This document shows, piece by piece, positions 1,599-64,000 of a DNA stretch of 64,000 nucleotides; positions within the stretch are counted from its first letter, which is position 1, and each line of letters opens with the position of its first letter. The notes beneath the pieces were generated by a model. It saw only the letters and a program-made list of their open reading frames with translations. It was not told the DNA's origin and ran no database searches. The position numbers and the translations under genes are program-made. The stretch is from Nothopassalora personata. Its lineage: Eukaryota; Ascomycota; Dothideomycetes; Mycosphaerellales; Mycosphaerellaceae. Location: NCBI GenBank assembly GCA_033816765.1, contig CM066287.1, positions 1,488,001-1,552,000 of the forward strand, in the 5' to 3' direction.

Positions 1599-1672
1599 GG
1601 CTAGGTAGCTTAGTAGTAGAGCGTAAGCTATCTACACTCTTAAGGTCGTAGGTTCGATTCCTACTCTAGCCG
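1599..1672 (+). pseudogene. tRNA-like relic
   Basis: A 74-nt cloverleaf can be drawn. The acceptor arms are GGCTAGG and TCTAGCC (one G-T pair), the D-stem is GCTT/GAGC with a box A-like TAGCTTAGTAGTAGAGC, the variable loop is AGGTC, and the T-stem is GTAGG/CCTAC around TTCGATT (box B GGTTCGATTCC). The anticodon arm is imperfect: the C28-T38 position is mismatched and the loop has 9 nt, so no anticodon can be assigned. It lies inside the Gypsy-1 relic between the chromodomain end and the antisense ORF. It is more likely a captured tRNA or tRNA-derived SINE piece than a working gene. Confidence 0.5.
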
Positions 1673-1734
1673 CTCCTAGCCGACTAGTCGCTAATCGGTA
1701 ACTTAGTAGGCTAGCCGTTTTTTAGTCTTGTAGT

Positions 1735-46420: not shown

Positions 46421-46459
46421 ATTAACTTCTATTTCTCTAGGTTATTAAATTAAGAAGCC

Positions 46460-46706
46460 TATTAAGATGTAGCATCTTAGGGGGAGCTAACAGTTAGGTT
46501 GTGATCTAATAGCCTAAGGCATCCACGATAACTTAGCTTATCGGAAGACACCTTCTCTCCCCTTTAGCTTAGATAGACATAAAACACAATCAACACATTG
46601 GTTCCTAATATATTGCTACATGCCCTATAGCTATTAGCTAGTTAAAGATTGATCTCTTACTCTACTCCGCTACTAACTACGCATCCTGTTAGGTCTCAAC
46701 TTAACA
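46460..46706 (+). repeat. Copia-4 5' LTR
   Basis: This 247-bp LTR runs from tattaagatgtagc to caacttaaca, the same family as 21345-21592, 26713-26959 and 10693-10940. The shared ggttataagcccg follows. Confidence 0.85.
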
Positions 46707-47720
46707 GGTTATAAGCCCGGGTTTGTACAGGAGTAAGAGTAACCTATATTAGTACAGGTTACTTATATCCCTTGCTATTATAGTAGAAAACATCTAGGAA
46801 GCAGAAGTCTACCCTATCTGTTCTATTAAGGAGCTTAGTTTAATACTAAGTAATAGGTAATCTAGAAAAGGACTCTATACGGCTTATTATAAGCTAATAC
46901 CTTAAAGACACTCTATAGGTAGAACTACATCGAGATACTATTAAGAAGGACTTTAAGTAAGTCATTTAGAACTCTGCTAGGAGAGACAGACCTATGTCCT
47001 AGCTCCGAGACTACACCGCTCTTTCTTTACCCTACTAAGCAGGCCTTAGTATCTACACCTACGAACCTTACTATTCTATACTAAAAGCCTTAGTAGAACC
47101 TAAGCCACGACTTTGAAGTATATACACCTTGTTTCATTACATTCAATTTATTATAGATTTATACTAAGAGAAAGGAGAAGAGAAGGGAACTAAAATCCCA
47201 ATTCTTAGGAGAGACAATTAGAAGAGATAGTTCAAGCTTTAGAGATACAAGATAGAGAGCTAGTTAGCATTCTTTGCAATTAATGACCTGTTAGAAGTGT
47301 TATTTAACAACATTAAGGGCAAGAACCTAAAACTCTAGGAAGAGACTAAGATTAAAGAGATTCTTAATGCACTAACATAGACAAAACAAAATACAGCTTA
47401 CTGCTTTAGTATCCTAAGTAGGATTATAGAAGAAGATGAATTTAAGCTTAAGGGCTCTTACGAATCTAGAAAAGCTACTAAGATATAGGTACATCTCTAG
47501 AATAAGTATAGCTAGGTGTTGCTAACCTATACACATAAGCTTACAAAACAGTTTATAAACTTTAAGATAAGTAAAGAGTTCACTATTAGATCTGCATAGG
47601 CACACCTAGTGTCTCTTAGAAGGAGGATTGCTAATGTTAACCTAGAGGGCTAGCACTATAGGAAAGCTAATATAAGAATGACCTAGCTTTTAAGCTTACT
47701 GCCACCTAACTACTATGTAG
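46460..47720 (+). mobile_element. Copia-4 relic, 5' fragment
   Basis: A 247-bp LTR (46460-46706) is followed by the leader and first part of gag, closely matching 21345-22600 of Copia-2 but with fewer RIP changes. It was inserted into Relic-E and is cut at 47720 by the LTR of Gypsy-4. Confidence 0.83.
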
Positions 47721-48189
47721 TGTTACGGTTCTAATCTAGGGCTGAAAGAAGCTAACTAATCAGACCTCTACAATTGGTAGTGTTACGGTTCTAATCTAGG
47801 GCTAAAGGAAGCTAACCAATTAGACCTCCACAATTAGTGGGCGCTTCTGCCCGAGAAGTGCTCTCTCACCCGTAGGAATAAAACTAAGGAACCGAGAGAG
47901 CAACTAAAGTGATCTCCTTAATCTCGTTGATCTCGGTGATCTCGAGAGAGCATAGAGAGCATAGAGAGCACGGAGAGTAAACGCTCTATCTCCTTTATAT
48001 TTAGGAACGCTAGAAACCCTTATAGTTCTAGTGCGTTCAACTTATGTTACTATCTCACTAATTAGAATACAACTCTTATTCCTATTATTTATCTTCGCTT
48101 AGCTTACTTTAGCCTCTCTAAAGAATAATACCGCTACGTAACTTAACTTATCTCTCTTTTAAGACTAGCCCTAGAACGAGACAATAACA
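47721..48189 (+). repeat. Gypsy-4 5' LTR
   Basis: A 469-bp LTR opens tgttacgg and ends gagacaataaca. Its first 120 bp are two imperfect 60-bp units (47721 and 47781). From the TATA-like ctttatattt near 47990 to the end it matches the complement of the Gypsy-1 LTR, while the U3 part is different and rich in gagagca repeats. Confidence 0.75.
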
Positions 48190-48206
48190 CTTTAAACGCC
48201 CTTAGG

Positions 48207-49068
48207 ATGAGCGCTACTTAAGTAGCTAGTAGGGGAACACCCGCCCCTAGCGAAGCAGGAAGCATCCGCCGTGCGCTACTATAACAGACTACTACGAAGG
48301 ACGATAAGTCTAATAACGATAACGAGCCTACTCTAAGGAAGAACGACGTTAAGGCTACTAAGCTAGACCTCTTCTATAGAGACAGGGCCAAGTTCGACGA
48401 CTGGATCAATTAGATAGATATGTATCTTATGTTTAACCTAGTCGATACCGATAAAAGAACTATCTTCGCTATTACGTACCTTCGCGGAAGTGCGTAGAAC
48501 TAGATCAAACCTTACCTTAAGGAATACCTTGAAGGTATAGGACGATTAGACCCTACTAGAATGTTTAGGAGCTACACTCTTTTTAAAGAGAAGATGAAAT
48601 CAATCTTTAGAACCTCGAACGAAGTCCAACAGGCTATACAAATCATTTAACACCTAAAGCAGAAGACGTCTACTTTAGAGTATGCAGCCAAATTCGAAGA
48701 ATACGGACAAATTACCGGATAGGACTAGACGGCGTTAATAACTATGTTCCGACGTGGACTTAAAGACTCCGTTAAGGACGAGTTAATAAGACACGGGGGA
48801 CGGATCACTAACTTCGAAGAGCTAATGAAGGCGTCGATTAATATCGATAACTAGCTCTAGGAACGATACTAGGAGAAGAGATACGACTCTAAAGTAGGAG
48901 GAATAGTAGGATACGCTCCGGACCGTAGACCCTTAGGAGGATACGTTGCGAAGGGAGAATTCTTACGATAAAGCCAACCCTACTATAGACTACAGCTAAT
49001 AGAACTGGACGTTACCTAACGAGGACGGAGGATCGACAAGAGTAGGGGCTACGGAAAGAAGCCCTTTA
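48207..49068 (+). pseudogene. Gypsy-4 gag relic, first part
   Basis: An ATG at 48207, 18 bp after the LTR, opens a gag frame with several TAG/TAA stops. It is the complement-strand homologue of Gypsy-1 gag (7160 leftward) and contains an FYRDRAKFDDWINxxDMYL-like segment near 48370-48430. It is interrupted at 49068 by the intact chromovirus 49069-56311 and continues at 56312. Confidence 0.72.
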
Positions 49069-49264
49069 TGTCACGGGCGAGAGGGACTACTATAGGTACG
49101 GGTAGAGACATATGTAGTTACGCGAGCTATCTAAGAGGTCGAAGGTACGCGCGAGAAGATAAGGGAACGCGAAGTAAGCTAGCGGGCGCTAGCGGCCGCT
49201 AGCGCGCGGGGCTGCGACCGATGACGTGTCGCGGGGCAGTGAGTGAAAGTGCTGTCTCGTGACA
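49069..49264 (-). repeat. Gypsy-3 3' LTR
   Basis: This 196-bp LTR runs from tgtcacggg to ctcgtgaca. The end of pol (to 49189) lies inside it. A GC-rich palindromic stretch (ctagcggccgctag) is near 49190. Confidence 0.92.
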
Positions 49265-52200
49265 GTACCCCCCCTCCTCAAAGAAGGAGCTCCTGTGACT
49301 GTGCTATTGCGTTCAGTGCCTGAAGCGTGCCGTGCGCCATTGCTGGCAGCACTGCCATTGCTTGTTTCTTGGGCTTCATCATGTGCAATGCGTGTCGTGG
49401 AGTGACAGTGACCTTCGCAAGGCTTACCAGAAGGCGATGTCGTCATGCCGTCAGCGTAGAGTGGCTCACCTGCGGCCGCGGACAGGAATCCTTCGTCTTG
49501 TAGAGTTGGTGTGTACTGCACATCGAGGATCACTGCCAGGCCGTACTGAGTGACTGTCTCGAGTCCGTCGAAGGCAGGCTTAGGTTTGTCAGGGTACCGC
49601 TGATGGAAGGCAATGGCGAGCTCTTCGCATCCTGGTAACACTGCAGTCCATTTTGCCCAGCTCTGTGTGTTGTCTTTCCATCGCACCATGTACCAGACGT
49701 CGTTGTACCTGATCTTTGAATCCACCAAGTCATCCACCTCATGCTCCTCGGATGCCTGGCCCTCGCGTTCGACGATCACAGGCGCCGGTGTTGGCTCACG
49801 CTGTCCAGGCATCCCCTCGTCGGCTGCTCGCCGCAGCTTGCTTGTGTGAAACACATTGTGTATTTGCATGCCGTCGCTAAGCTCGAGTTCGTACGAGCGC
49901 CTGCCCACGGTCCTTGTGACCTTGAACGGCCCAAGGTACTTGTGGTCAAGCTTCTTGCTTGGGCGCGTGGTCTTGATATCACGGGCATCCAGCAGAACCA
50001 TGTCACCAGGCTTGTAGGCAGGCGCTGGTGCACGCCGGGCGTTGGCGGCATCGGCGGTGCGTGCTTGTGCAAATGCGTGTGCATCTCTCAGCTCATCGAG
50101 TCGCTCCTGGCGCATGGACTCGAGTACTTCGTGCATGTGCTGCTGAGTGCTCTGCATGTTGTCAACCAGATTGTTAGCGGCTTCGACATTGGGTACTTCT
50201 CTGGCAGTGATTTGTGGTCTCGCAAGGCTCGTGAATTCCATCCGTGGGTGGCGACCGGTGTCTGCAAAGAAGGGTGTCATGCCGGTGCTAGTGGACTGGT
50301 GGTTGTTGAGAGCGAACTCGGCATCCGGAAGTAGTTGAACCCAGTTGTCTTGCTGATAGTTGGCGTAGGCGCGAAGATACTGTTCAAGTGCCTGGTTGGT
50401 GCGCTCGGATTGTCCGTCGGTCTCTGGATGGAAGGCCGTAGAAAGATTTTGCTTGATGCCAAGACGCGCGCAAAGTCTTCGGAAGAGCGCACTGACAAAT
50501 TGCGTGCCGCGGTCACTGACGATAACCTCCGGCAGACCGTGCAATGGAAAGATGTGCTTGTGGAATAGTAGCGCTGCATGCTCGGCTGACAAGTCGTTCG
50601 TAGGCAGCAGGCGAACTCGCTTGGTGAGCATGTCAGTGACGGTCATGATATGTTTGTAAACCAGTCCCGTCTCCGGGTCTTTGCTAGGCGGTAGGTCGAC
50701 GATGAAGTCCACTGCAATATGCTTCCATTCGTAGCTTGGGGTTGAATGCGAGGACAGTGTACCCTGCTTAAGCAGTCGAGACGGTGTAGATCTCCGGCAT
50801 ATGATGCAGTATCGCACGTACCGGGCGACATCGCTAGCCATGTTAGGCCAAAACAGATTCTGTCTCTGCAGCAGGTTGAAGGTCCTGGCGATGCCTTGGT
50901 GCCCTGCAGCTCTACCGTCGTGGTATCGCTTCACTATTCTGGTGCGAAGGTTCTGGAATGCAGGGACGTATAGGGCTTTGTTGACATATAACCGGTCCAT
51001 GATGATCTCGCAATCTGAAGCTGCTATTTTCTGTTGCTGGAGCCACGCGTTGGTACGTCCTTGCTGCAGGTCGGTCTTCAGACGCTGCATGTGGGCTTTC
51101 ACAGTCTTGCTGTTATATGCTTCTTCGCACAAGGCTTCTTCTGGCTGATCATCGGTGTCATCTTGGTCGGGGGCATCTTCGGGTTGCGCAAGTTCTTGAA
51201 CAGGGGGGGCATCTTCGGGTTGCGCAAGTTCTTGAACAGGTTCTTGGGCGGGTTCAACAGGTTCCTCGTTGCTTGGTGTGTCGTCTTCGTCATCTGAGTC
51301 GCAAACAGAGGGTGGGACATAGGTCGATGGCGCGTCCATTTGCATTGCAGATTCCTCGTTGTCATCGATCTGCATCGCGAATTGAGTAACGATGTCGAGG
51401 TTGTGCGGTTTCAAGATGGTTTGCTGTTGATACTGCACTCTCTCGTCATCCACCCCCGCCGGAATGTCTTGAGAACGACGTGTCAGAGCATCTGGCTTAG
51501 TGCCCTGCACTCCAGGTCGATACGTGATCTTGAAGTTGAACTGTGAAAGGAACTCGGCCCAGCGTGCTTGACGCCTGTTCAGTTGCTTCGTGGTCATAAA
51601 GTATTCCAGATTGCGGTGGTCCGACAGCACGCGGACTGGCTTATCGTCTGTGGCACAAATGAGCTCAGGCTGCCACTCCTCGAACGCCTTGACAATGGCA
51701 AGCAGCTCTTTGTCGTAGATGTCATAGTTGCATTCTTGCGGACTGAGCTTTTTGGAATAGAAAGCCACAGGCCGAAGTACTCCATTGATCATCTGTGACA
51801 GCACTGCTGCATTGACCCAGTCGCTTGAGTCTGTCTCAACCCAGATCTGTTCGCCTGGTTGATAGTGCGCAAGCATGCCGGCTTGGCTGAATCTCTGCTT
51901 GAGTTCCTTGAATGCGGCTTCGCACTGTGGAGTCCATACGAAAGGCGGTCTCTTTGCTTTGGACACCCTGCCGTTAACCTTGCTTCCTTCCCCCGTCTTG
52001 GTGAGGTCCGTGAGGCAGGCTGTGACCTTCGAGAATCCGTAGATGAATTTGCGGTAGAATCCTGTGAAGCCTAGGAAGGCCAGTACGTCCTTGACATTGC
52101 GAGGAGTCTCCCAGTTCATGATGGCCTCGATCTTGACTGGGTCCATGTCGACGCCTTCAGTAGTGATAATCAGGCCTAGATATTTGATGCGCTTGACATG

Positions 52201-53670
52201 GAATTCGCACTTGTCGATGTCGACTGGCAGACCGGCTTCGCGCAGTTTGAATAGTACTTTGCGGACATGGGCTCGGTGGTCGTCAAGTGAGCCATCCGTG
52301 TATATAAGGACGTCGTCCAGATACACAGTGACAAAATCGTCCAGGAATTCGCGGAGGATCTCGTTGATCTTGCGTTGCCAGCTGCTTGGCCCATTACAGA
52401 GCCCGAAGGGGAGGACTTTGAACTGGTACAGCCCATATCTGGTAATGAAGGCTGTCATCCATTCATCTCCCTTGCGGATGCGCATGTTATTAAATGCTGC
52501 GACGATATCAAGCTTCGTGAACCACTTTGCCTTGCACACGCGTTCGAGGGTCTCTCGCAGCAACGGGATGGGATAGCGGTCTTTGATGGTGAGTGCGTTG
52601 AGGGCTCGGTAGTCAATGCACACGCGCAACCCTCCTCCTGGCTTCTTTACGATGAGAACGGGTGACGACATGTCGGACTTGGAGGGTTCGACCGTGCCGT
52701 TGGCCATGCCGTCGTCAATGAACTTCTTAACGACAGCCAATTGTTCTGGGTTCATGCTGAATGCTTTCTTGTACGGCAGATTGTTCTCAGAGCCTGGCTT
52801 CAGGTTGATGGCATGATCTGAAGGGCCATGCTCAGGTAGTTTGAAGTCGTTCTTGTGCCTAAAGGTATCCGCAATGTCATGGTACTCCGGTGGTAGCTTG
52901 ACTTTGGGGTCTTGCACTTTGCTCTTCTTCATGAATATTTCCCAGTCGTCCGGAGACATGGCGAACGCAGTGGCATGTTCGTCGTTGGGGTCGAAGTCTT
53001 CGGGCCACAGGGCGAACATCTCGCCGTTGTCTTCTTGTTGCCTGCCTTGCCGCTTGCGGGCGCGTTTGGCCATTCGATAGAATGCGTCGGCGCTGATGAA
53101 GCATATGTCCGGGTCCGGTTCTGGCGGGACCACTTTCGGTGGTGCGGGTTTTGGTGTATTGGACTTGCTCGTTGCGTCCATGACAATAGTGCATGGTCTG
53201 CTGCCCTCGCAATGAGACTGGTAGCAGAAGGGCTTATCGAATGAGAGTGTCTTGTTCTTGAAACTGCAGGACGGGTCATGTTCTTCAAGCCATGAAATGC
53301 CGAGGACAATGTCGTACTTGTCCAAGTCCGTGATGTAGCAGAGCTCTTGGCTGGTGTGCCCACCGATGGTGATGTCCATCAGTGCCGCCTCTAAGAGGCG
53401 GGCAGTAGATCCGTTGGCCAAGCGGAGCCTACGGGGTCTATCAAGCTTGAATGTAGGTATGGTATTTGCGCGGACGAATCTTGGGTCAGTGAACTTGGAA
53501 GAGGCACCAGTGTCAGAGAGGGTGAGAGCTTTTGCTTTCCTACCTGATGTGCTAGTTACAGTGCTGGCGCACACCATGTGCTTTCCATGCGTTGGTTGTA
53601 CATGTATAGGCGTATGGGTGTCACCCTCAGCTGTTACTGCACACAGATATTCCTCCTCTTGGGCAAGCAT
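49189..53670 (-). CDS. pol: Gypsy-3 Pol polyprotein (PR-RT-RH-IN-chromodomain)
   Basis: From its first Met the frame has 1493 codons, but it is open upstream across the gag stop to the slippery site at 53763-53769, so it is probably made as a Gag-Pol fusion. Domains in order: aspartic protease with SDTGAS (about residue 53), reverse transcriptase with FGLCNGPSSW and YLDDVLIY (about 449), RNase H with ETDSSD and YDKELLAIV (about 610-660), a low-complexity acidic linker with a duplicated 12-residue unit (about 810-840), integrase with HHCC zinc finger, DFIVDLP, SDRGTQF and QSERTNQ (DDE core, about 900-1090), and a chromodomain (VDDLVDSKIRYNDVWYMVRW, about 1310-1350). The order defines the chromovirus group of Ty3/Gypsy. 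The last 76 bp, including the stop, lie within the 3' LTR. All catalytic residues I can check are present. Confidence 0.93.
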   Translation of the reverse strand: MLAQEEEYLCAVTAEGDTHTPIHVQPTHGKHMVCASTVTSTSGRKAKALTLSDTGASSKFTDPRFVRANTIPTFKLDRPRRLRLANGSTARLLEAALMDITIGGHTSQELCYITDLDKYDIVLGISWLEEHDPSCSFKNKTLSFDKPFCYQSHCEGSRPCTIVMDATSKSNTPKPAPPKVVPPEPDPDICFISADAFYRMAKRARKRQGRQQEDNGEMFALWPEDFDPNDEHATAFAMSPDDWEIFMKKSKVQDPKVKLPPEYHDIADTFRHKNDFKLPEHGPSDHAINLKPGSENNLPYKKAFSMNPEQLAVVKKFIDDGMANGTVEPSKSDMSSPVLIVKKPGGGLRVCIDYRALNALTIKDRYPIPLLRETLERVCKAKWFTKLDIVAAFNNMRIRKGDEWMTAFITRYGLYQFKVLPFGLCNGPSSWQRKINEILREFLDDFVTVYLDDVLIYTDGSLDDHRAHVRKVLFKLREAGLPVDIDKCEFHVKRIKYLGLIITTEGVDMDPVKIEAIMNWETPRNVKDVLAFLGFTGFYRKFIYGFSKVTACLTDLTKTGEGSKVNGRVSKAKRPPFVWTPQCEAAFKELKQRFSQAGMLAHYQPGEQIWVETDSSDWVNAAVLSQMINGVLRPVAFYSKKLSPQECNYDIYDKELLAIVKAFEEWQPELICATDDKPVRVLSDHRNLEYFMTTKQLNRRQARWAEFLSQFNFKITYRPGVQGTKPDALTRRSQDIPAGVDDERVQYQQQTILKPHNLDIVTQFAMQIDDNEESAMQMDAPSTYVPPSVCDSDDEDDTPSNEEPVEPAQEPVQELAQPEDAPPVQELAQPEDAPDQDDTDDQPEEALCEEAYNSKTVKAHMQRLKTDLQQGRTNAWLQQQKIAASDCEIIMDRLYVNKALYVPAFQNLRTRIVKRYHDGRAAGHQGIARTFNLLQRQNLFWPNMASDVARYVRYCIICRRSTPSRLLKQGTLSSHSTPSYEWKHIAVDFIVDLPPSKDPETGLVYKHIMTVTDMLTKRVRLLPTNDLSAEHAALLFHKHIFPLHGLPEVIVSDRGTQFVSALFRRLCARLGIKQNLSTAFHPETDGQSERTNQALEQYLRAYANYQQDNWVQLLPDAEFALNNHQSTSTGMTPFFADTGRHPRMEFTSLARPQITAREVPNVEAANNLVDNMQSTQQHMHEVLESMRQERLDELRDAHAFAQARTADAANARRAPAPAYKPGDMVLLDARDIKTTRPSKKLDHKYLGPFKVTRTVGRRSYELELSDGMQIHNVFHTSKLRRAADEGMPGQREPTPAPVIVEREGQASEEHEVDDLVDSKIRYNDVWYMVRWKDNTQSWAKWTAVLPGCEELAIAFHQRYPDKPKPAFDGLETVTQYGLAVILDVQYTPTLQDEGFLSAAAGEPLYADGMTTSPSGKPCEGHCHSTTRIAHDEAQETSNGSAASNGARHASGTERNSTVTGAPSLRRGGTVTRQHFHSLPRDTSSVAAPRASGR
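51171..51242 (-). repeat. 36-bp tandem repeat in Gypsy-3 pol
   Basis: Two units of 36 bp (gcatcttcgggttgcgcaag starts at 51173 and 51209) encode the repeated peptide PVQELAQPEDAP in the linker between RNase H and integrase. Confidence 0.85.
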
Positions 53671-53728
53671 CTCATATCCTTGCTCGTGTTCTGGTCCTTC
53701 GTGTTCGTGACTCGTGGATTCGTGAGGC

Positions 53729-53769
53729 GCTCCGTCAACGCGACTGTGTTGAGGAGCTAAGCATTTCCC
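53729..53769 (-). promoter_or_regulatory. Programmed -1 ribosomal frameshift signal, gag-pol
   Basis: On the minus strand the heptamer GGGAAAT (53769-53763) reads G GGA AAT in the gag frame, fitting X XXY YYZ. Five nucleotides later a stem starts: GCTCC TCAAC (53757-53748) pairs with GTTGA and GGAGC (53739-53735 and 53733-53729), with one bulged C at 53734 and an 8-nt loop (53747-53740). The gag stop TAG is at 53759-53757. Slipping back one base leads into the pol frame, which is open from there on. Confidence 0.78.
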
Positions 53770-56012
53770 TGAGGAGCTGCTTCAATGGGAAGGGCCGGTG
53801 CATCGGTCATGGCGTTGAGGGCGATTGGGGTCTCTCGATCGACATCGCCAGTGCGCCACTTGCCACGCGAGTTGTGAAGAATGCACACGGGGTCGAGGCC
53901 GGTGTGGTCAGGCTCTCGACAGCGGAAACATCGGCCTTCACGGCGGCACTGGTCGCGGACTTCGTCGGTGAGCTTGGGCAGGTTGCCGTACTTGCGAGGG
54001 ATGATGCGGACGGCAGGGCCTGTGTTCTGGCTTCGCGTGGTGACAGTGAGCGTGTTGTTGGTGAGTGGTGTGCGCTGACCGCCGGAGCCAGAACCACCTT
54101 GCTGCTGTTGCTGGCCGCCGTTGCCCTGCTGACGACGGTTGTTCTGCTGGCCGGCATTGGCGTTGTCCTTGTCCTTGTCCTTGTTCTCGTTGTTCTTGCC
54201 GTGCATGCTCTTGAGTGTGTTCCAGGCTTCCTCCTTGTCCTTGGCAATGCGGCAGAACTCAGAGAAGTTCTCGAGCAGTTGGTGATCCTCCATCTTGCGC
54301 ATCCAGAACTCGTTCAAGCTGATCCATAGCTTGTATGTAACCAGCTTCTCACCTGCTTTAGCCGATAGGCGGCGGTATTCGATGATGTACTCGGCAAATT
54401 CTTGATTCTTCTTCTGGCGGAGCTGTATAAGCTCGCGGCCTGCCTTGAGTGCAACGTCACGCGGGTTCTCGCCGAAGTTCTCGTCCAGCTCGTCCCACAT
54501 GTCCTCTAGCGAGCCCCAAGAGTCATTCTCGATTGCAAGCAAGAAGATGTCTTTGGGCGTACCGGAGGTGTGACGCTTGATGTAGTTGAAGATGTCAATA
54601 CACGGGGTCTGAGGTGTGTATCTTGCGCTGATGGCGTCCTTGCAGCTGTCCTTCCAGTCCCTATAGGATGGGGATTCAGCAGTGTTGTCGAACTCCTTGG
54701 GATGAGGGAAGCGCTTGTCAGGTTCTTGCGCGAACGTGGTAGTGTTGTCGGTCTTGTGTGTTAGGACCGAAGCATGGCGCTCACGGCGTCGATCGTGTTC
54801 AGTGCGAGGTCTGTCACGATCTTGCCGAGCCTGACCTGCTGGTGTCTGAGAACGGCGAGCGCCAGCCTGTGGGAATCCGTCCAAGCCAGGGTCGCGTTCT
54901 TGGTGACCTTGGTCTCGACGGCGTTGATGCTCAAGCTGTTCGTGGAAGGTACGGGGTCGCTCGGTCGACTCGTTCAGGCGAGCTTGTGTCTTGAGGTGCA
55001 CAATCTCGTTCTTCAGCTCGTTGACCTCGTTCTTGTACTGCTCGAGCTCATCTTCTGCCTGGTCGAGGTTGCCATTTGCTGTAGTAATGCGGTTGGACAA
55101 CTCGTCAGTGATGCGCTTGTGAGTGGCCTTCAACATGTAGTCCTCGGGAATCCTGTCCTCGTTCTTGAGCTCATCCTCGAGTTCGCGCACGCGCTCCTCG
55201 TGGGTTTTTGCATCGGCGTCTCGTTCGTCTCGCTCCTGCACGATCTCGTCGCGATCCTGGGTAATGATGTCGATAGCATTCTTGGCCTCTTCGAGCCTCT
55301 CTTCTGCTTCATCCCGCTCTTGTAATGCTGCGTTGCGTTCCTCACGATATCGCTTTGTGAGTTCGCGGTTAGAGTTGAAGGCCGTCTTAAGCTTGGCGTA
55401 TCCGTCCACTGTACTCTTGACGCTGAGGTAGATCGTGACCGGGCGTAGGTTGACTTGTCTCTGGAACGCAGTGGCGTCGGCGAGTCGATAGTTGGCGGGA
55501 TCGTATGTGAATTCGGCGTTATCGCGGTCGATCGCATCGAATCGTGGTGGTGCATCTGGGTCGTGGGCAGAGGTCAAGTCGATGCCTTGCCCATCATCCT
55601 CGTAGCCGGACAAGTTAGTGTCCTCAACTGGCTGCTTACCTTGTCGCCGGCTGCTTGGTCGTGTGGAAGACTCGGCAGGCTGTTGCGACTGCGACTCGGC
55701 TCGCATGGTATCTTGCGTTTCGAGTGGTTGGGTTTGGGATTGATGAGTCTGTACTTGAGAGAGAGGAGACTTGCCTATGCCGCCTGGTGGCGACATGTTT
55801 CCCTTACCCTCTTGCTGGTCTTGCTGGATACGCGTGAGGCGATCCGGATGCATGTTGTCACGGTCTCCTGGGCTTAGCATAGATCGTACGTGTGCTTGAA
55901 GTTCTGGGTCATCGGCGCCTCTATTCAGCAGCTCTGCTGGAATGGAGGACTCGCGTTCGCGCTGTCGGCGCTGCCTTGAGAAGGGCGGTTGCTGTTGCTG
56001 TTCGTTGTCCAT
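53757..56012 (-). CDS. gag: Gypsy-3 Gag
   Basis: This 751-residue structural protein packages element RNA into virus-like particles. The N-terminal third is Gln-rich and disordered. Residues of about 210-345 form a long coiled coil (runs such as EERNAALQERDEAEERLEEA). The retrotransposon Gag domain follows at about 440-600 (RFPHPKEFDNTAESPSYRDW, then ENDSWGSLEDMWDELDENFG). A Gln/Gly-rich stretch (QQQQQGGSGSGGQ) precedes the zinc knuckle CFRCREPDHTGLDPVC, which has C-x2-C-x4-H-x6-C spacing in place of the usual x4. The chosen ATG is the first after the 5' LTR. Ending in GNA-stop just past the slippery site, it should be the main product, with Gag-Pol made by frameshifting. Confidence 0.9.
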   Translation of the reverse strand: MDNEQQQQPPFSRQRRQRERESSIPAELLNRGADDPELQAHVRSMLSPGDRDNMHPDRLTRIQQDQQEGKGNMSPPGGIGKSPLSQVQTHQSQTQPLETQDTMRAESQSQQPAESSTRPSSRRQGKQPVEDTNLSGYEDDGQGIDLTSAHDPDAPPRFDAIDRDNAEFTYDPANYRLADATAFQRQVNLRPVTIYLSVKSTVDGYAKLKTAFNSNRELTKRYREERNAALQERDEAEERLEEAKNAIDIITQDRDEIVQERDERDADAKTHEERVRELEDELKNEDRIPEDYMLKATHKRITDELSNRITTANGNLDQAEDELEQYKNEVNELKNEIVHLKTQARLNESTERPRTFHEQLEHQRRRDQGHQERDPGLDGFPQAGARRSQTPAGQARQDRDRPRTEHDRRRERHASVLTHKTDNTTTFAQEPDKRFPHPKEFDNTAESPSYRDWKDSCKDAISARYTPQTPCIDIFNYIKRHTSGTPKDIFLLAIENDSWGSLEDMWDELDENFGENPRDVALKAGRELIQLRQKKNQEFAEYIIEYRRLSAKAGEKLVTYKLWISLNEFWMRKMEDHQLLENFSEFCRIAKDKEEAWNTLKSMHGKNNENKDKDKDNANAGQQNNRRQQGNGGQQQQQGGSGSGGQRTPLTNNTLTVTTRSQNTGPAVRIIPRKYGNLPKLTDEVRDQCRREGRCFRCREPDHTGLDPVCILHNSRGKWRTGDVDRETPIALNAMTDAPALPIEAAPQGNA

Positions 56013-56928: not shown

Positions 56929-57276
56929 TGTTAGGAACCGCTGTACGTTATCACAACTCGGGCTTGGATCTTTGCAGGGATGTCTCAATCAGTTATGAAG
57001 GTAGTGGTTCCAAACAGTATATGGTGTATACTTAAAATGAGTTGAGCACGAGGCTCCTATCTACTCGTAAAGAAGCGTCGTCTATATAGTGCCATGTCTT
57101 GGCGTGATCTGTCCTGCTCTGCCCTGAGCGAGTCTGATCAACTGATCAAGAGTGATCAGGACCGATCAGTCCTGATCGCTCTGTCACGTGACTCCCCAGG
57201 CATCCATGTCTGCAGCTTCGTCTGGTTTCCTGCTCCGTTGTCCAACCATTTGCACCGATAACACTGTTCCGTAACA
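56929..57276 (-). repeat. Element A 3' LTR
   Basis: This 348-bp LTR runs from tgttaggaaccgctg to gttccgtaaca. It contains a cluster of TGATCA/GATCAG palindromes at 57133-57178 and the core block with TATA (complement of gcgtcgtctatatag, about 57080). The neighbouring antisense ORF starts 80 bp beyond its inner edge. Confidence 0.92.
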
Positions 57277-57355
57277 TAATCCCCCCCTTCAGCATTGTTG
57301 TCCCCAACAATCCATTTTATAAAGACTTGTGAGTCCTTTCCTTCTCTTGCTAACG

Positions 57356-57928
57356 ATGCCGTCCTCGACTGACCGTCGCAAGCGCGTTCTGGACGAAATT
57401 TCCCGGTCTGGTCTTCCCGCCGAATCCCCCTGCGACTACTGTAATAGTCGCGGCCTTTGTTGCATCATGCTTCCAGACGAATCTCGTTCCGCCCGCTGTT
57501 CCAATTGCATTTCCCAGGGTCGCAAGTGTGTGAATGCGTCGTGGTCTTCGCTTGACCGCACCAGGGAGCAGGTCTCGAGAGACCTTGAGAACTCCCTCGA
57601 CGCTCTGGACAAGAAACAAGAGGAGTTGAGCGCTCTTCTTTCCAAGGTCTCGCGTCTCCGTCGCACTCTGAAGCTTGCCGAAGAGCGCGCTTCGAAGAAG
57701 GCGACGTGCCTCCAGGAAGAGTTGTTTCTGGAGGATCAGCAGACCTGGCGCTCGGAGCAATCCGCCATTCTCCGGTCCGATCCCGATCTTCCCCTCGAGC
57801 CCTTGTCGACCAAGTCCCTGCAGTGGTTGGATACTTTCGATTGGGACTCCCTTCCCGCTGGTTTCCTAGAAACCCCCAGTGGTGTCCTCCCATCGTGGGT
57901 ATTCTTGTTCGTTGTGGCCGTGTCGTAG
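57356..57928 (+). CDS. Element A antisense ORF: Zn2Cys6-like coiled-coil protein
   Basis: It is a complete, unmutated 190-residue protein if read from the Met at 57356 (MPSSTDRRKRV); nine codons upstream at 57329 is a second ATG. That start is 80 bp from the 3' LTR, the position seen in all copies. A cysteine cluster at residues about 23-55, CDYCNSRGLCC...CSNCISQGRKC, has C-x2-C-x6-C-x11-C-x2-C-x6-C spacing, which is the fungal Zn2Cys6 pattern, though the usual basic residues between cysteines are scarce. A coiled coil follows (about 65-130, DALDKKQEELSALLSKVSRL) and then an acidic, Trp/Phe-containing C-terminus (WLDTFDWDSLPAGF) that resembles an activation domain. It converges on gag of the same element with 75 bp between stops. 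The function is unknown; DNA-binding regulator is my inference. Confidence 0.78.
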   Translation: MPSSTDRRKRVLDEISRSGLPAESPCDYCNSRGLCCIMLPDESRSARCSNCISQGRKCVNASWSSLDRTREQVSRDLENSLDALDKKQEELSALLSKVSRLRRTLKLAEERASKKATCLQEELFLEDQQTWRSEQSAILRSDPDLPLEPLSTKSLQWLDTFDWDSLPAGFLETPSGVLPSWVFLFVVAVS

Positions 57929-58003
57929 TGTTGACTTCTTTTCCCTAGGTCATCAAATCAAGAAGCCGCTGTTTGATGCCTTGCTGTCCTCAGGTTGTTT
58001 CTG

Positions 58004-58996
58004 CTAGGCAGATTTCGAGAAGAAGTTCTCGCATTCCTGGTATGTATTCTCTTCGCGAATCATTGCGTTGAACTCGCGGCTAACCATGTTCTTTTTCTTG
58101 CAGTTCCTTGCAAAATGGCCTTGCTCGCCACATACGTAGCAGGTGGAACCTTTGCTCTTCAGCCCCCTTCCTGTCCTACGTTCCGTTACGTCCAATTCCA
58201 TTGGGTCTCCGTAACCATTAGGGTCCTGACTTCTGGCCTTGAAGCCCCCTCTTCCGCCCGCGGCGGGTCTCTGGTATCCAGGCTGTACGTGTCGGTCGTA
58301 CCTCAACTCCTGGAGCCTTTCGTCGATCTCCTTTGCTGCCTTGATCATCGCCCCTAGCGTAACGACGCTGGCGTTTCGGGATAGTTCGGCTTTGACGTTG
58401 TCTTTCAGCCCGAGGTAGAACTGCGATCGCAAAGCTGCGTCGTTCCATTCCAGGTCGGCGGCATATCCTTGGAATTCTGAGGCGTACAGCGCTACAGAAG
58501 TAGTCTGTCGAAGTTGTCGGATATGTCGGTCGGCGTATACCTCCTCATTTGGTATCCCGTATAGATCATCGAGTTTCGTCTCAAACTCGTCGTAGTCGTG
58601 GAAAATTTTTCGAGTTTCCGTTTTCGGTGTTTCTCCCTCGCCCTGGTTGTGTAGCCAGTCCTTGAGGTATGGTCGGAATCCTCTAGCTGCTTTTCCTCGT
58701 AGGAAGGATGCGGCGTACAAGACTTTAGAAGCCTCGCCTTGAAACTGGTGTGCGTTGAAGTGAAGGTACAACTGAACCTGCAGTTGAAAAGCCTCCAGTT
58801 TGTCCTTGGTCCCGTCGAACGTCTCCGGCGTAGACACCTTAGGTGCACGGTGGTGGTCCAATGGGTTCAGCATACCCATAGGAGTGTTGTTGTTCTTGCT
58901 GCTTCCTGTAATCGACATTTCGCTCATTCGTTCCGTGATGCCAGTTGACTGTGGCTGTTGTCGTGACGGACTCCGGGTAGCGTCTCTCCCAGACAT
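58004..58996 (-). CDS. gag: Element A Gag
   Basis: This 330-residue protein (start MSGRDATRSPS; two more codons are open upstream) is about 97% identical to the gag ORFs at 60477 and 62625. It contains a retrotransposon Gag domain (about residues 55-200, starting TPETFDGTKDKLEAF and including YLHFNAHQF) and one standard zinc knuckle, CYVCGEQGHFARNC (C-x2-C-x4-H-x4-C, about residue 290). It should form particles and bind element RNA. No protease follows. The difference in length from the other copies is one residue (PNGYGD against PSYGD). Confidence 0.88.
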   Translation of the reverse strand: MSGRDATRSPSRQQPQSTGITERMSEMSITGSSKNNNTPMGMLNPLDHHRAPKVSTPETFDGTKDKLEAFQLQVQLYLHFNAHQFQGEASKVLYAASFLRGKAARGFRPYLKDWLHNQGEGETPKTETRKIFHDYDEFETKLDDLYGIPNEEVYADRHIRQLRQTTSVALYASEFQGYAADLEWNDAALRSQFYLGLKDNVKAELSRNASVVTLGAMIKAAKEIDERLQELRYDRHVQPGYQRPAAGGRGGFKARSQDPNGYGDPMELDVTERRTGRGLKSKGSTCYVCGEQGHFARNCKKKNMVSREFNAMIREENTYQECENFFSKSA

Positions 58997-59028
58997 ATGC
59001 AAAGGGCCCTGGTGGTGGTGCTCAAAGT

Positions 59029-59376
59029 TGTTAGGAACCGCTGTACGTTATCACAACTCGGGCTTGGATCTTTGCAGGGATGTCTCAATCAGTTATGAAG
59101 GTAGTGGTTCCAAACAGTATATGGTGTATACTTAAAATGAGTTGAGCACGAGGCTCCTATCTACTCGTAAAGAAGCGTCGTCTATATAGTGCCATGTCTT
59201 GGCGTGATCTGTCCTGCTCTGCCCTGAGCGAGTCTGATCAACTGATCAAGAGTGATCAGGACCGATCAGTCCTGATCGCTCTGTCACGTGACTCCCCAGG
59301 CATCCATGTCTGCAGCTTCGTCTGGTTTCCTGCTCCGTTGTCCAACCATTTGCACCGATAACACTGTTCCGTAACA
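59029..59376 (-). repeat. Element A 5' LTR
   Basis: This is identical by eye to 56929-57276 at a constant offset of 2100. Just inside, the minus strand reads actttgagcaccaccacc, and tttgagcacc also follows the Element B LTR, so it is the likely primer-binding site. Confidence 0.92.
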
Positions 59377-60096
59377 GCTAGATACTATCGAGGAAGAACA
59401 GGATCCGGAAGAATTAAGCGAAGAAGATTCCTCCGAAGGAGAAGAGAGCGATACTAACGACGACAACGAACAACTTACCTTCACGGTAGATGCACCTAAG
59501 AAACTATACGACATAATTATCTACCTATAAAGAAGGCACGAGGAATTTCTACCTAAGATAGGTAGACGAAGGAAGCTACATTCCATTAAGTTTAATAAGA
59601 CACTCGACACCCTACGAGGCATAGCCTAGGGATACCCACTTATAGAAACAACCGAGAATCTAGCAACTACCGTTATAGAACGACTACCGATAGGAAGCTA
59701 AATAACAGGAACCGGATATCTTACACCGTTAGGAACATTTATATCGAATGAATTACGTAACATAGTACAACACGCACGCGTACTCTACTTAGAAACGTAG
59801 AAGATCTAGGAACGCAATAGACTACAAGTGTAGACATAGGGCAACGGGCTACAGGTTCTAGCCAAAGCCTCTAGGCACGAAGCATAGCGAACCATATACT
59901 ATTCGGGAAAAGGATTAGCTCCCTAGGAATGAGCGACCGGAGGGAGTTATGCAATACTTAGGCTTATGCATCGACATTAAACATAGTTTTCTAGACACAA
60001 GCAATCGTTAACGGACATAAGACTAGTGTTATAATCGACTTAGGAGTAGCGGGGAATTTCATCTCCGAGTCTTTTATAAGAAGAAACGGGTTAGCT
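59377..60096 (+). pseudogene. Gypsy-4 relic: gag-pol linker and protease start
   Basis: It continues Gypsy-4 after Element A. An acidic linker (EDSSEGEESDTNDDNEQL near 59425-59470) and, near 60030-60090, a retropepsin remnant (VIIDLGVAGNFISESF) are the complement of 5640-5030 in Gypsy-1. It is cut at 60096 by Element B. Confidence 0.72.
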
Positions 60097-60437
60097 TGTT
60101 ACGGTTCGGTTCAGGAAGAACCCACAGCCACTCATTCTTCGGGAAGGACCGAAACTGAGCAGGTCGACTTCGCTCAGACTGATCAGCTCAGTGATCAGTT
60201 CGCTCAGTCTGCTCAGTGATCAGTCTGCTCAGTCTGATCAGTTACGCCAAGACATGGCACTATATAGACGACGCTTCTTTACGAGTAGATAGGAGCCTCG
60301 TGCTCAACTCAAATCAACACTCTTGTGTTAAGTTGCAACCTTGTAGTGAACTCTCGTTCACACTACTTTAGAGACATATCGAGGATCGACACTTCCTAGG
60401 CCACCCACGTGACGAGGGACAAGGCCCAACCGCAACA
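60097..60437 (+). repeat. Element B LTR, first
   Basis: This 341-bp LTR carries four TGATCAG palindromes (60176-60242) within CTCAG repeats, then a TATA box (actatataga, about 60260) and the conserved acgacgcttctttacgagtag block. Beyond gtgctcaactca its U5 differs from the LTR of Element A. Confidence 0.9.
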
Positions 60438-60476
60438 CTTTGAGCACCAAAAGCCGCGGGGAGTGCTATCGATTAT

Positions 60477-61466
60477 ATGTCTGGGAGAGACGCTACCCGG
60501 AGTCCGTCACGACAACAGCCACAGTCAACTGGCATCACGGAACGAATGAGCGAAATGTCGATTACAGGAAGCAGCAAGAACAACAACACTCCTATGGGCA
60601 TGCTGAACCCATTGGACCACCACCGTGCACCTAAGGTGTCCACGCCGGAGACGTTCGACGGGACTAAGGACAAACTGGAGGCTTTTCAACTGCAGGTTCA
60701 GTTGTACCTTCACTTCAACGCACACCAGTTTCAAGGCGAGGCCAGCAAGGTCTTGTACGCCGCATCCTTCCTACGTGGAAAAGCAGCTAGAGGATTCCGA
60801 CCATACCTCAAGGACTGGCTCCATAACCAGGGTGAGGGGGAAACACCGAAAACGGAGACTCGAAAAATTTTTCACGACTACGACGAGTTTGAGACGAAAC
60901 TCGATGATCTATACGGGATACCTAATGAGGAGGTATACGCCGACCGACATATCCGACAACTTCGACAGACCACTTCTGTAGCGCTATACGCCTCAGAGTT
61001 CCAAGGATATGCCGCCGACCTGGAATGGAACGACGCAGCACTGCGATCGCAATTCTACCTCGGACTAAAGGACAATGTCAAAGCTGAGCTATCCCGAAAC
61101 GCCAGCGTCGTTACGCTAGGGGCGATGATTAAGGTAGCAAAGGAAATCGACGAAAGGCTCCAGGATTTGAGATACGACCGATTCGTACAGCCTGGATACC
61201 AGAGACCCGCCGCGGGCGGAAGAGGGGGCTTCAAGGCCAGAAGTCAGGACCCTAGTTACGGAGACCCAATGGAATTGGACGTAACGGAGCGTAGGACAGG
61301 AAGGGGGCTGAAGAGCAAAGGTTCCACCTGCTACGTATGTGGCGAGCAAGGCCACTTTGCAAAGAACTGCAAGAAAAAGAACATGGTTAGCCGCGAGTTC
61401 AACGCAATGATTCGCGAAGAGAATACATACCAGGAATGCGAGAACTTCTTCTCGAAATCTGCCTAG
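60477..61466 (+). CDS. gag: Element B copy 1 Gag
   Basis: This 329-residue Gag starts at MSGRDATRSPS, 40 bp after the LTR. It has a Gag domain at about residues 55-200 and a zinc knuckle CYVCGEQGHFAKNC near 290. It is identical to the copy at 62625 and about 97% identical to Element A gag. It ends with the conserved ECENFFSKSA. It provides capsid function; no pol is encoded. Confidence 0.88.
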   Translation: MSGRDATRSPSRQQPQSTGITERMSEMSITGSSKNNNTPMGMLNPLDHHRAPKVSTPETFDGTKDKLEAFQLQVQLYLHFNAHQFQGEASKVLYAASFLRGKAARGFRPYLKDWLHNQGEGETPKTETRKIFHDYDEFETKLDDLYGIPNEEVYADRHIRQLRQTTSVALYASEFQGYAADLEWNDAALRSQFYLGLKDNVKAELSRNASVVTLGAMIKVAKEIDERLQDLRYDRFVQPGYQRPAAGGRGGFKARSQDPSYGDPMELDVTERRTGRGLKSKGSTCYVCGEQGHFAKNCKKKNMVSREFNAMIREENTYQECENFFSKSA

Positions 61467-61575
61467 CAGAAACAACCTGAGGACAGCAAGGCATCAAACA
61501 GCGGCTTCTTGATTTGATGGCCTAGGACACAGAAGTCAATACAGCGACACAAAAACACGACTACTGGATAAGAAC

Positions 61576-62163
61576 TTACGACAAGGAGGCCAGCGGAGGG
61601 ACGGTCCAAGGAAAGGAAGGGTCACACAGCTGTTCCCAATCCTGAGGCGGCATCTGCCAAGGATCGAATTCCTTGCCAGAGGATGTCGTCTCAACGCCAG
61701 CAGCACCTTCCCCCTCCCGATCCTCAGCCTCAAGCTCTTCAAGCTCCTTCGCCACGGCATCGTCGGCCTTGCCGGATGCGAGGCGAAGCTGCTTGCGAAG
61801 ACAAATCTTCTTGGCCTTTTGGCGTATGATACGCTGGGCCAGCTCGGCTTGCTGATGGAGAAGCTCCACCTCCTTCTCCTCCGCACGCTCGAGCTCACGT
61901 TGGAGACCGTCACGGATATCGCGAAATTTCGTCCACTCGTGTGCCGAAAGTGTCACATCGCAATCGGAGTATCCTTTGCGTATACACTCTGAGCATTTTC
62001 CGGAACGGGGCGACACGATGCACTTCGGACGCTCGGCGAGGGCAGGGACCCTTGCGGCACGGCAATGATGACAAGGAGCCATTTCAACACCGGTTCTCTC
62101 AATATCGATGGCGAGCGCCTTTCTTCGAAGAGATGTTTTAGAAAACGATTTGGAGGAAGACAT
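61576..62163 (-). CDS. Element B antisense ORF: Zn-cluster coiled-coil protein
   Basis: Read from MSSSKSFSKTS at 62163 (82 bp from the next LTR) it has 195 residues; an upstream in-frame ATG at 62184 adds seven. The cysteine cluster is PCHHC...KCIVSPRSGKCSECIRKGYSDC, C-x2-C-x13-C-x8-C-x2-C-x7-C, a wider version of the Zn2Cys6 layout. Next comes a coiled coil (residues about 75-155, QRELERAEEKEVELLHQQAEL; KKICLRKQLRLASGK) and a Trp/acidic C-terminus (DPWQMPPQDWEQL). It converges on gag with a 109-bp gap. RIPped relatives are at 1020-1502, 10000-10497 and 45024-45605. Its relation to the Element A protein is seen in layout more than in sequence. The role is unknown. Confidence 0.78.
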   Translation of the reverse strand: MSSSKSFSKTSLRRKALAIDIERTGVEMAPCHHCRAARVPALAERPKCIVSPRSGKCSECIRKGYSDCDVTLSAHEWTKFRDIRDGLQRELERAEEKEVELLHQQAELAQRIIRQKAKKICLRKQLRLASGKADDAVAKELEELEAEDREGEGAAGVETTSSGKEFDPWQMPPQDWEQLCDPSFPWTVPPLASLS

Positions 62164-62244
62164 TGCGGGTGCAGCTCGAAACATACGGTGACAAGCGGGT
62201 TATGTAAGAAGTTCCGGGACGGAACTAGACTAAGAGGGGGATGG

Positions 62245-62585
62245 TGTTACGGTTCGGTTCAGGAAGAACCCACAGCCACTCATTCTTCGGGAAGGACCGA
62301 AACTGAGCAGGTCGACTTCGCTCAGACTGATCAGCTCAGTGATCAGTTCGCTCAGTCTGCTCAGTGATCAGTCTGCTCAGTCTGATCAGTTACGCCAAGA
62401 CATGGCACTATATAGACGACGCTTCTTTACGAGTAGATAGGAGCCTCGTGCTCAACTCAAATCAACACTCTTGTGTTAAGTTGCAACCTTGTAGTGAACT
62501 CTCGTTCACACTACTTTAGAGACATATCGAGGATCGACACTTCCTAGGCCACCCACGTGACGAGGGACAAGGCCCAACCGCAACA
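62245..62585 (+). repeat. Element B LTR, second (shared)
   Basis: This is identical by eye to 60097-60437. It is both 3' LTR of copy 1 and 5' LTR of copy 2. Confidence 0.9.
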
Positions 62586-62624
62586 CTTTGAGCACCAAAA
62601 GCCGCGGGGAGTGCTATCGATTAT

Positions 62625-63614
62625 ATGTCTGGGAGAGACGCTACCCGGAGTCCGTCACGACAACAGCCACAGTCAACTGGCATCACGGAACGAATGAGCG
62701 AAATGTCGATTACAGGAAGCAGCAAGAACAACAACACTCCTATGGGCATGCTGAACCCATTGGACCACCACCGTGCACCTAAGGTGTCCACGCCGGAGAC
62801 GTTCGACGGGACTAAGGACAAACTGGAGGCTTTTCAACTGCAGGTTCAGTTGTACCTTCACTTCAACGCACACCAGTTTCAAGGCGAGGCCAGCAAGGTC
62901 TTGTACGCCGCATCCTTCCTACGTGGAAAAGCAGCTAGAGGATTCCGACCATACCTCAAGGACTGGCTCCATAACCAGGGTGAGGGGGAAACACCGAAAA
63001 CGGAGACTCGAAAAATTTTTCACGACTACGACGAGTTTGAGACGAAACTCGATGATCTATACGGGATACCTAATGAGGAGGTATACGCCGACCGACATAT
63101 CCGACAACTTCGACAGACCACTTCTGTAGCGCTATACGCCTCAGAGTTCCAAGGATATGCCGCCGACCTGGAATGGAACGACGCAGCACTGCGATCGCAA
63201 TTCTACCTCGGACTAAAGGACAATGTCAAAGCTGAGCTATCCCGAAACGCCAGCGTCGTTACGCTAGGGGCGATGATTAAGGTAGCAAAGGAAATCGACG
63301 AAAGGCTCCAGGATTTGAGATACGACCGATTCGTACAGCCTGGATACCAGAGACCCGCCGCGGGCGGAAGAGGGGGCTTCAAGGCCAGAAGTCAGGACCC
63401 TAGTTACGGAGACCCAATGGAATTGGACGTAACGGAGCGTAGGACAGGAAGGGGGCTGAAGAGCAAAGGTTCCACCTGCTACGTATGTGGCGAGCAAGGC
63501 CACTTTGCAAAGAACTGCAAGAAAAAGAACATGGTTAGCCGCGAGTTCAACGCAATGATTCGCGAAGAGAATACATACCAGGAATGCGAGAACTTCTTCT
63601 CGAAATCTGCCTAG
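62625..63614 (+). CDS. gag: Element B copy 2 Gag
   Basis: This 329-residue Gag is identical to 60477-61466, with the same Gag domain and CCHC knuckle. The preceding 40-bp leader, including the primer-binding region ctttgagcacc, is also identical. Confidence 0.88.
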   Translation: MSGRDATRSPSRQQPQSTGITERMSEMSITGSSKNNNTPMGMLNPLDHHRAPKVSTPETFDGTKDKLEAFQLQVQLYLHFNAHQFQGEASKVLYAASFLRGKAARGFRPYLKDWLHNQGEGETPKTETRKIFHDYDEFETKLDDLYGIPNEEVYADRHIRQLRQTTSVALYASEFQGYAADLEWNDAALRSQFYLGLKDNVKAELSRNASVVTLGAMIKVAKEIDERLQDLRYDRFVQPGYQRPAAGGRGGFKARSQDPSYGDPMELDVTERRTGRGLKSKGSTCYVCGEQGHFAKNCKKKNMVSREFNAMIREENTYQECENFFSKSA

Positions 63615-63723
63615 CAGAAACAACCTGAGGACAGCAAGGCATCAAACAGCGGCTTCTTGATTTGATGGCCTAGGACACAGAAGTCAATACAGCGACACAA
63701 AAACACGACTACTGGATAAGAAC

Positions 63724-64000
63724 TTACGACAAGGAGGCCAGCGGAGGGACGGTCCAAGGAAAGGAAGGGTCACACAGCTGTTCCCAATCCTGAGGCGGCA
63801 TCTGCCAAGGATCGAATTCCTTGCCAGAGGATGTCGTCTCAACGCCAGCAGCACCTTCCCCCTCCCGATCCTCAGCCTCAAGCTCTTCAAGCTCCTTCGC
63901 CACGGCATCGTCGGCCTTGCCGGATGCGAGGCGAAGCTGCTTGCGAAGACAAATCTTCTTGGCCTTTTGGCGTATGATACGCTGGGCCAGCTCGGCTTGC
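63724..64000 (-). CDS. Element B copy 2 antisense ORF, C-terminal part
   Basis: This is the C-terminal portion of the second copy of the Zn-cluster coiled-coil ORF. It runs in from beyond the window edge and stops at 63724, equal to 61576 plus 2148. The cysteine cluster itself lies outside the window. Confidence 0.75.
   Translation of the reverse strand, partial: QAELAQRIIRQKAKKICLRKQLRLASGKADDAVAKELEELEAEDREGEGAAGVETTSSGKEFDPWQMPPQDWEQLCDPSFPWTVPPLASLS

Follow-up and report, generated by a model that had tools for sequence, protein, structure and literature searches.

An antisense zinc-cluster-like gene beside the variable U3 of LTR retrotransposons in Nothopassalora personata

The last part of a 64,000-bp stretch of the Nothopassalora personata genome (contig CM066287.1, positions 1,488,001 to 1,552,000; C1:1488001-1552000 of a 54.5-Mb genome in 40 contigs; hereafter the window) holds two short long terminal repeat (LTR) elements, A and B, in which an additional open reading frame (ORF) lies on the strand opposite gag and close to the 3′ LTR. 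What does this ORF encode, and why is it carried by the elements? The original prediction had described it in A, in B and in three relics, and had suggested an element-borne or domesticated DNA-binding protein. The observation as a whole is confirmed: the feature is real, intact in A and B, stop-ridden in the three relics and widespread in this genome. The explanation that we favour, with guarded confidence, is that the ORF encodes an element-borne zinc-cluster regulator of the element's own LTR, inherited and exchanged together with its probable control region.

Both short elements have the same layout: LTR, gag (capsid domain and CCHC knuckle), convergent ORF, polypurine tract, LTR. Element A spans 56929-59376 and is inserted in a relic of the gag gene of an autonomous family, E, to which its flanks match at 92% and 88% with a 5-bp overlap. 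Element B begins at 60097 and is a tandem array in which two internal parts alternate with three LTRs (60097, 62245 and 64393); its outer flanks show a single TAGCT duplication. The gags of A and B are 98% identical; their antisense ORFs are 29% identical over 129-142 residues.

56929-57276, minus strand: 3′ LTR of A, 348 bp, first letters TGTTACGG in element orientation, 100% identical to 59029-59376
57108-57268, minus strand: family-specific (variable) U3 part of A, from LTR comparison
57294-57311, no strand: inverted repeat of A with 7-bp arms, between ORF and LTR (repeat scan)
57318-57323, plus strand: TATAAA of A between inverted repeat and ORF start, a possible antisense promoter (sequence and motif scan)
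57356-57928, plus strand: convergent zinc-cluster coiled-coil ORF of A, 190 residues
57431-57529, plus strand: six-cysteine cluster of A (residues 26-58, from the translation), aligned to solved Zn2Cys6 domains
58004-58996, minus strand: gag of A, 330 residues (Pfam Retrotrans_gag 7.9e-11, zf-CCHC 2.7e-6)
58997-59028 and 60438-60476: leader regions behind the 5′ LTRs, complementary to R
59029-59376, minus strand: 5′ LTR of A, with target duplication GCTAG at the flanks
60097-60437, plus strand: first LTR of B, 341 bp
60477-61466, plus strand: gag of B, first unit, 329 residues
61576-62163, minus strand: convergent zinc-cluster-like coiled-coil ORF of B, 195 residues, or 202 from an upstream ATG
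62210-62226, no strand: inverted repeat of B, AGTTCC-GGGAC-GGAACT (repeat scan)
62245-62585, plus strand: middle LTR of B; the third, at 64393, lies beyond the window
62253-62389, plus strand: family-specific U3 part of B, with abundant short repeats (26 repeated 7-mers; mean of shuffled sequences 1.7)
62625-63614, plus strand: gag of B, second unit (sequence search)
63724-64000, minus strand: second copy of the B ORF, inside which the window ends; complete to 64311 in the genome (C1:1551727-1552311)

A conserved antisense gene and its protein

Searches of the genome with the A and B ORFs gave at least 150 matches each, many with intact frames, from which one representative was taken per family. 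Ten families are gag-only (A, B, B86, C, F, G, H, I, K and L), and in three more (D, E and J) the same kind of ORF is convergent to a gypsy pol ORF. Because these families were found through the ORF, they cannot show whether it is a standard component, so the boundary between polypurine tract and LTR was taken as the search target instead. The pattern GGGGATGGTGTTACGG occurred at 298 exact places and its reversed control at none; a second pattern with GGGAC upstream occurred at 163 places, again with none for the control. Ten junctions were fetched among the first 100 of the 298 matches, six with a new inverted-repeat sequence and four without an ORF among the matches listed. All ten had the ORF or a relic of it: five intact copies, one truncated copy and four relics, the last recognised by eye in frame translations. 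The five intact copies represent four new families, one of them present twice, and 17 intact families were seen in all. The ORF thus looks like a standard part of a chromovirus group in this genome.

Selection on the ORF was assessed by the Nei-Gojobori ratio of nonsynonymous to synonymous divergence (dN/dS) over 14 rows and 91 pairs, from which relics were excluded. Between B and B86, dS was 0.85 and dN 0.070, a ratio of 0.083 (30 changes at 447 nonsynonymous sites and 70 at 138 synonymous sites), and between G and I the values were 1.8 and 0.31, a ratio of 0.17. The proportion of nonsynonymous differences (pN) was below that of synonymous differences (pS) in 85 of the 91 pairs, most of them saturated. 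The original prediction had proposed dN/dS between intact copies as a check; copies within a family proved too alike for it (C1 and C2 differ by no synonymous change), and the ratios far below 1 come from the two measurable pairs of families. In those two pairs the ORF is under purifying selection, which argues that it is kept for its protein.

Three other readings were rejected. A chance ORF is ruled out by five cysteines that never vary across 23 aligned proteins (six from databases, the other 17 from this genome) and by dN/dS, and the at least 150 matches in each search of the genome argue in the same direction. A domesticated host gene, one half of the original suggestion, is not supported by the intact copies read, all of which adjoin an LTR start, and both LTRs are seen in 11 of the 13 first-read families (for D and J a single side was read). 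An ORF overlapping gag is ruled out by the intergenic gap of 25-113 bp in the ten short families.

The protein combines a cluster resembling Zn2Cys6 with a long coiled coil and a tail of acidic character, and support for the cluster is good in the A clade and weak in the B clade. Zn2Cys6 domains have the consensus C-x2-C-x6-C-x5..12-C-x2-C-x6..8-C. Element A has C-x2-C-x6-C-x11-C-x2-C-x6-C exactly as had been claimed, and the PF00172 cysteine spacing is found in A (x6, x11, x6), C (x6, x11, x6) and D (x6, x10, x6). The alignment (A5) leaves out database proteins P0001-P0005, P0009, P0012 and P0014 of the first 14. Zn_clus was the Pfam family matched by most members (7 of 13 at E-values up to 10), with a best score of 21.0 bits, in L024, at a cut-off of 21; for DUF3716 (PF12511; cut-off 22 bits), the sole match among the proteins scanned was P0015, at 16.6 bits. 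The model of A (mean predicted local distance difference test score 83.9) has a predicted cluster fold, the absence of which would have counted against the original prediction: 11 of 12 Foldseek matches were Zn2Cys6 DNA-binding domains, and the model superposed on PPR1, LAC9 and Pho7 with root-mean-square deviations of 1.4-1.8 Å over 33-35 residues. The six cysteines all align with those of eight Zn2Cys6 domains of the host (alignment probability 49%). For the B clade, a zinc-cluster identity would follow from homology to the A clade. In Gal4-type domains, a basic run between the second and third cysteines touches DNA; such a run is present in C (RRLKRS) and F (TREKKV).

The last 50 residues contain 6-11 acidic and 0-3 basic residues (14 rows, 13 families). 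In the same 14 rows no transmembrane-like stretch was found, the 19-residue hydropathy mean staying below 1.6 throughout; the highest value was 1.55, at the C-terminus of A, and the other rows reached 0.07-0.93. Two profile searches, each scoring about 8,000 best candidates, returned 30 different proteins, mostly unnamed metagenome entries; those with names include proteins of Sporormia fimetaria and Cercospora kikuchii. Sporormia and Cercospora are Dothideomycetes.

The genes in the window are of fungal type, and it also contains AT-rich mutated tracts and three relics of the ORF.

1020-1502, plus strand: mutated ORF relic, of family J type by eye (sequence search)
10000-10497, minus strand: mutated ORF relic with a gag relic at 8832-9818 of 64-65% identity (sequence search)
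45024-45605, plus strand: mutated B-like ORF relic (sequence search)

Against the B ORF the three are 43%, 38% and 63% identical. They were said to keep frame and length, and an alignable frame of 174-180 residues is indeed retained, interrupted by 3, 7 and 15 in-frame stops (hand count). The start of the ORF had been placed 74-82 bp inside the 3′ LTR; the distance from ATG to LTR is 79 bp in A, 81 bp in B and 73, 77 and 78 bp in the relics (hand count), "inside" being right only in the sense of the inner side of the LTR. Near-identical relics with two TAG and two TAA stops recur on C20, C21, C30-C34, C39 and C40 and at C9:5388 and C9:20192; on the small contigs these perhaps sit in a large repeat. 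Elsewhere on C1, junctions of polypurine tract and LTR form two opposed sets (5714681, 5725456 and 5736231 on the plus strand; 5754076, 5764855 and 5775630 on the minus strand) with a spacing of about 10,775 bp, and one of the loci among them (L086) carries a relic ORF resembling that of family E.

The ORF-U3 module and the inverted repeat

In element orientation the LTRs start with TGTTACGG, followed by a family-specific stretch of 129-195 bp. From CACTATATAGACGACGC onwards, through R and U5, the ten short families have a common core; D, E and J have another. We compared the ten short families pairwise (45 pairs, leaving out C2, a near copy of C1 that was retained in the 14-row tests and the U3-repeat control). 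Median identity was 98.1% for gag and 92.0% for core-R-U5, against 51.4% for the ORF (shuffled 48.2%) and 51.7% for the upstream U3 (shuffled 42.9%). Synonymous divergence between G and I was 0.018 in gag and 1.86 in the ORF, and between B and B86 it was 0.164 and 0.85. ORF distance correlated with U3 distance (r 0.46, P 0.009) and with the distance of the inverted-repeat region described below (r 0.55, P 0.004, n=10), and not with that of gag (r -0.22) or core-R-U5 (r -0.10). Short repeats exceeded shuffled sequences (P <0.05) in the upstream U3 of 9 of 13 families and in core-R-U5 of none of 11 rows. The ORF and the upstream U3 are thus one strongly diverged module over a common gag and a common core promoter-R-U5.

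The two parts of this module adjoin across the LTR border, so that a single template switch would exchange both. Such a switch may occur inside gag during reverse transcription of co-packaged RNAs, and copying of the U3 would then place the swapped version in both LTRs. The U5 is of two types, with GGTTCCTAACA or CCGCAACA at the end, among elements whose gag is nearly identical, a further sign of recombination.

Between the ATG and the LTR an inverted repeat was found in all 18 families examined, with variable arms around a centre of GGGAC or nearly so, and ending 15-21 bp from the LTR. Relics were left out because mutation of CA/TG on the two strands may imitate compensation; the one exception, N6, has a truncated ORF. 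At least six perfect pairs are formed in 14 of the 18 families, and only five in D, H, N1 and N4 (shuffle P >0.1 each). At the five core pairs of the alignment of 18 rows, 88.9% of cells are paired, against 63.7 ± 3.4 after shuffling, and slid versions of the repeat pair in 17-44% of cells. Double changes number 22, against 6.5 ± 2.1. None of 500 shuffles reached the observed pairing, double changes or covariation score. In two further counts the alignment did not exceed its shuffles: double changes affected 4 pairs, a number equalled or surpassed in 234 of the 500, and the 9 pair types were equalled or surpassed in 104.

Possible roles of the gene

In the favoured reading the ORF is a standing gene of a group of Ty3/gypsy chromoviruses that prime themselves, as well as of the short gag-only elements presumably dependent on them. 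Its transcription would probably start at the inner edge of the 3′ LTR; such an antisense promoter, already envisaged in the original prediction, is plausible, with the TATA-like motifs as candidates. The product may be a small nuclear DNA-binding regulator in which the divergent Zn2Cys6 cluster touches DNA, the coiled coil dimerises and the acidic tail, with its conserved tryptophan, acts on transcription. It would probably bind sites in the neighbouring U3, and hence in all LTRs of its own family, as a presumed activator or repressor. Since protein and control region lie side by side, they could be exchanged as one module between elements with a common gag and core promoter.

Several observations weigh against this reading. 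The spacing in B, C-x2-C-x13-C-x8-C-x2-C-x7-C, is not canonical, with x13 between the second and third cysteines departing from PF00172. In the Zn_clus search that had been proposed, A scored singly 7.8 bits, below the cut-off, and B had no match; the structure model of B gave one unrelated Foldseek match and no Zn2Cys6 structure. The basic run between the second and third cysteines is missing in A and several others. A family's own U3 shows no enrichment of half-sites of its inverted repeat (P 0.89), and the correlation of ORF with U3 is equally expected from linkage alone. Only two family pairs give a usable dN/dS, and pN equals or exceeds pS in 6 of the 91 pairs. The reading draws on sequence and structure models. 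Of the original suggestion, an element-borne zinc-cluster and coiled-coil protein is well supported for the A clade, and for the B clade it would follow from homology.

The inverted repeat can be explained in two other ways. A realistic, if tentative, alternative is that it folds as a hairpin in the genomic RNA or its cDNA, serving packaging or plus-strand priming at the polypurine tract and unrelated to the ORF, which may regulate elsewhere. The fixed distance to the polypurine tract and the conserved centre favour such a hairpin, as does the compensated stem, which RNAalifold recovers. A stem of RNA sits less well with G-U in only one of 80 paired cells, with a repeat region that tracks ORF kinship, and with the four families that form only five perfect pairs. 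The scarce G-U and a TATA-like neighbourhood instead favour an operator, and it is conceivable, though in our estimate rather doubtful, that the ORF encodes a transcriptional repressor for copy-number control, with this repeat as its operator and with the LTR and the antisense promoter of the ORF itself as its main targets. The arms compensated over 18 families and the repeat region's agreement with ORF kinship would suit this, one G-U in 80 being more like a DNA dyad than an RNA stem, and in 11 of the 18 families a TATA-like motif lies 0-19 bp beyond the repeat on the antisense strand (scanned without a shuffled control). The same scan was empty in the other seven; the repeat is anchored to the LTR (standard deviation 1.2 bp) and not to the ATG (22 bp) in 13 families, and its centre is better conserved than its arms, unlike most operators.

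That antisense transcription itself is selected, through double-stranded RNA, silencing or interference, with the protein incidental, we regard as improbable. The convergent layout is compatible with it, and roles of this kind have been proposed for plant antisense ORFs in the available part of PMC7264820, but purifying selection on amino acids in two pairs and the invariant cysteines speak for the protein. An envelope-like gene is more improbable still. The name comes from a database entry, P0028, the "Env" of Cercospora beticola metavirus 1, which is 42% identical to the B ORF over 144 residues and as a query matched only itself. This virus, classed in Metaviridae, was assembled from fungal RNA sequencing, and its gene is named env in the portion of PMC8537984 consulted. 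The gene is homologous to the B ORF and differs in its name and in two replaced cluster cysteines. A position near the 3′ LTR would suit an envelope gene; the opposite strand, the cysteine cluster and the coiled coil would not, and a retroviral Env was rejected on the hydropathy maximum of 1.55. As none of the 14 rows contains a transmembrane-like stretch, "env" looks like a misnomer, and comparison of the proteins suggests that the label on the fungal metavirus is wrong.

Autonomous relatives and known systems

Chromo and Tf2-1-like SH3 domains were found in the pol of D and J, the two families scanned, which identifies chromodomain integrases. In family E both LTRs are identical (410 bp), gag is open (673 residues, 37% identical to the gag of the short elements), and pol is open in the parts read. 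The leader after the 5′ LTR is complementary to R over 8 bp in all five short families tested (TTGAGCAC with GTGCTCAA), and likewise over 8 bp in E (TTGAACGC with GCGTTCAA), the start of R being placed by inference in each case; the two sides change together between the short elements and E. Elements of the Tf1/sushi type self-prime, and the complementarity fits such a mechanism.

1599-1673, plus strand: tRNA gene with CTA anticodon, beside the family J relic (Rfam)

Such tRNA genes, whose CTA anticodon would read UAG, were also found at L071:1514-1591 and L075:1572-1646, and in the pol-bearing families E and J the gene is placed between pol and the antisense ORF, on the ORF strand. The Rfam tRNA scores, 50.6 and 52.5 bits, lie above the gathering score of 29. 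Of 40 scored genome matches, 36 were judged by eye to adjoin an E or J ORF, relic or junction and four have no listed neighbour; the gene was not found in L070 (family D). The stop codon of gag in family E is TAG. With pol in the -1 frame and a further stop, TGA, one codon on, simple read-through of the TAG would not join gag and pol.

Tandem arrays of short elements occur at 60097-64733 in window numbering (element B) and at C12:1356314-1367583, where six gags follow each other with a period of 2056 bp. A second gypsy element in the window (49189-53670 and 53757-56012, minus strand) has an intact gag (751 residues, with a weak gag match) and pol (1493 residues), and the domain scan of 49189-56012 gave no chromodomain match. 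The ORF list shows no ATG-started ORF of at least 100 residues in 46288-49189.

Antisense extra ORFs in LTR elements are a known kind, described for plants and, as brtn, for Botrytis. In the parts available of PMC7264820 and PMC11963269, plant LTR elements carry antisense ORFs between pol and the 3′ LTR whose function is described as an open question; DNA binding is predicted for TRP28, and non-autonomous members exist. Position, orientation and conservation across copies are as in the fungal ORF, whereas the domain is another and a common gag with a swappable ORF-U3 module is not described in those parts. The antisense gene brtn is mentioned in the parts available of PMC7264820, PMC8365987, PMC4227169 and PMC5987419; it belongs to the Boty-like elements of Botrytis cinerea (Zhao et al. 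2011, Virology 417:248), fungal gypsy elements with a chromodomain and an extra antisense gene. In the literature searched, where subscription papers are thinly covered, no zinc-cluster antisense gene in a fungal LTR element is described. As far as that search reaches, the zinc-cluster identity, the ORF-U3 module over a common gag and the compensated inverted repeat are new. The fungal ORF combines a domain recognisable as of DNA-binding type with a signal of selection and an adjoining candidate target, and it was seen in 17 natural variants, ten of them short families with a common gag, which makes the pairing of regulator and target directly testable.

TR-GAG elements are non-autonomous gag-only elements that consist of LTRs and gag without pol. 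The short elements are likewise LTRs and gag without pol, but they keep a second conserved gene, and their pol-bearing relatives carry the same gene. In the immunity regions of lambdoid phages, a regulator and its control region are swapped as a block among elements that share their other genes. The ORF-U3 module resembles these by analogy only. Speculatively, and with some doubt, the families may be organised in the same manner, sharing Gag, the core promoter and presumably a helper Pol while each has its own pair of regulator and upstream U3 and answers only to its own regulator; such pairs would diversify far faster than the rest, move by template switching and amount to retrotransposon "immunity types".

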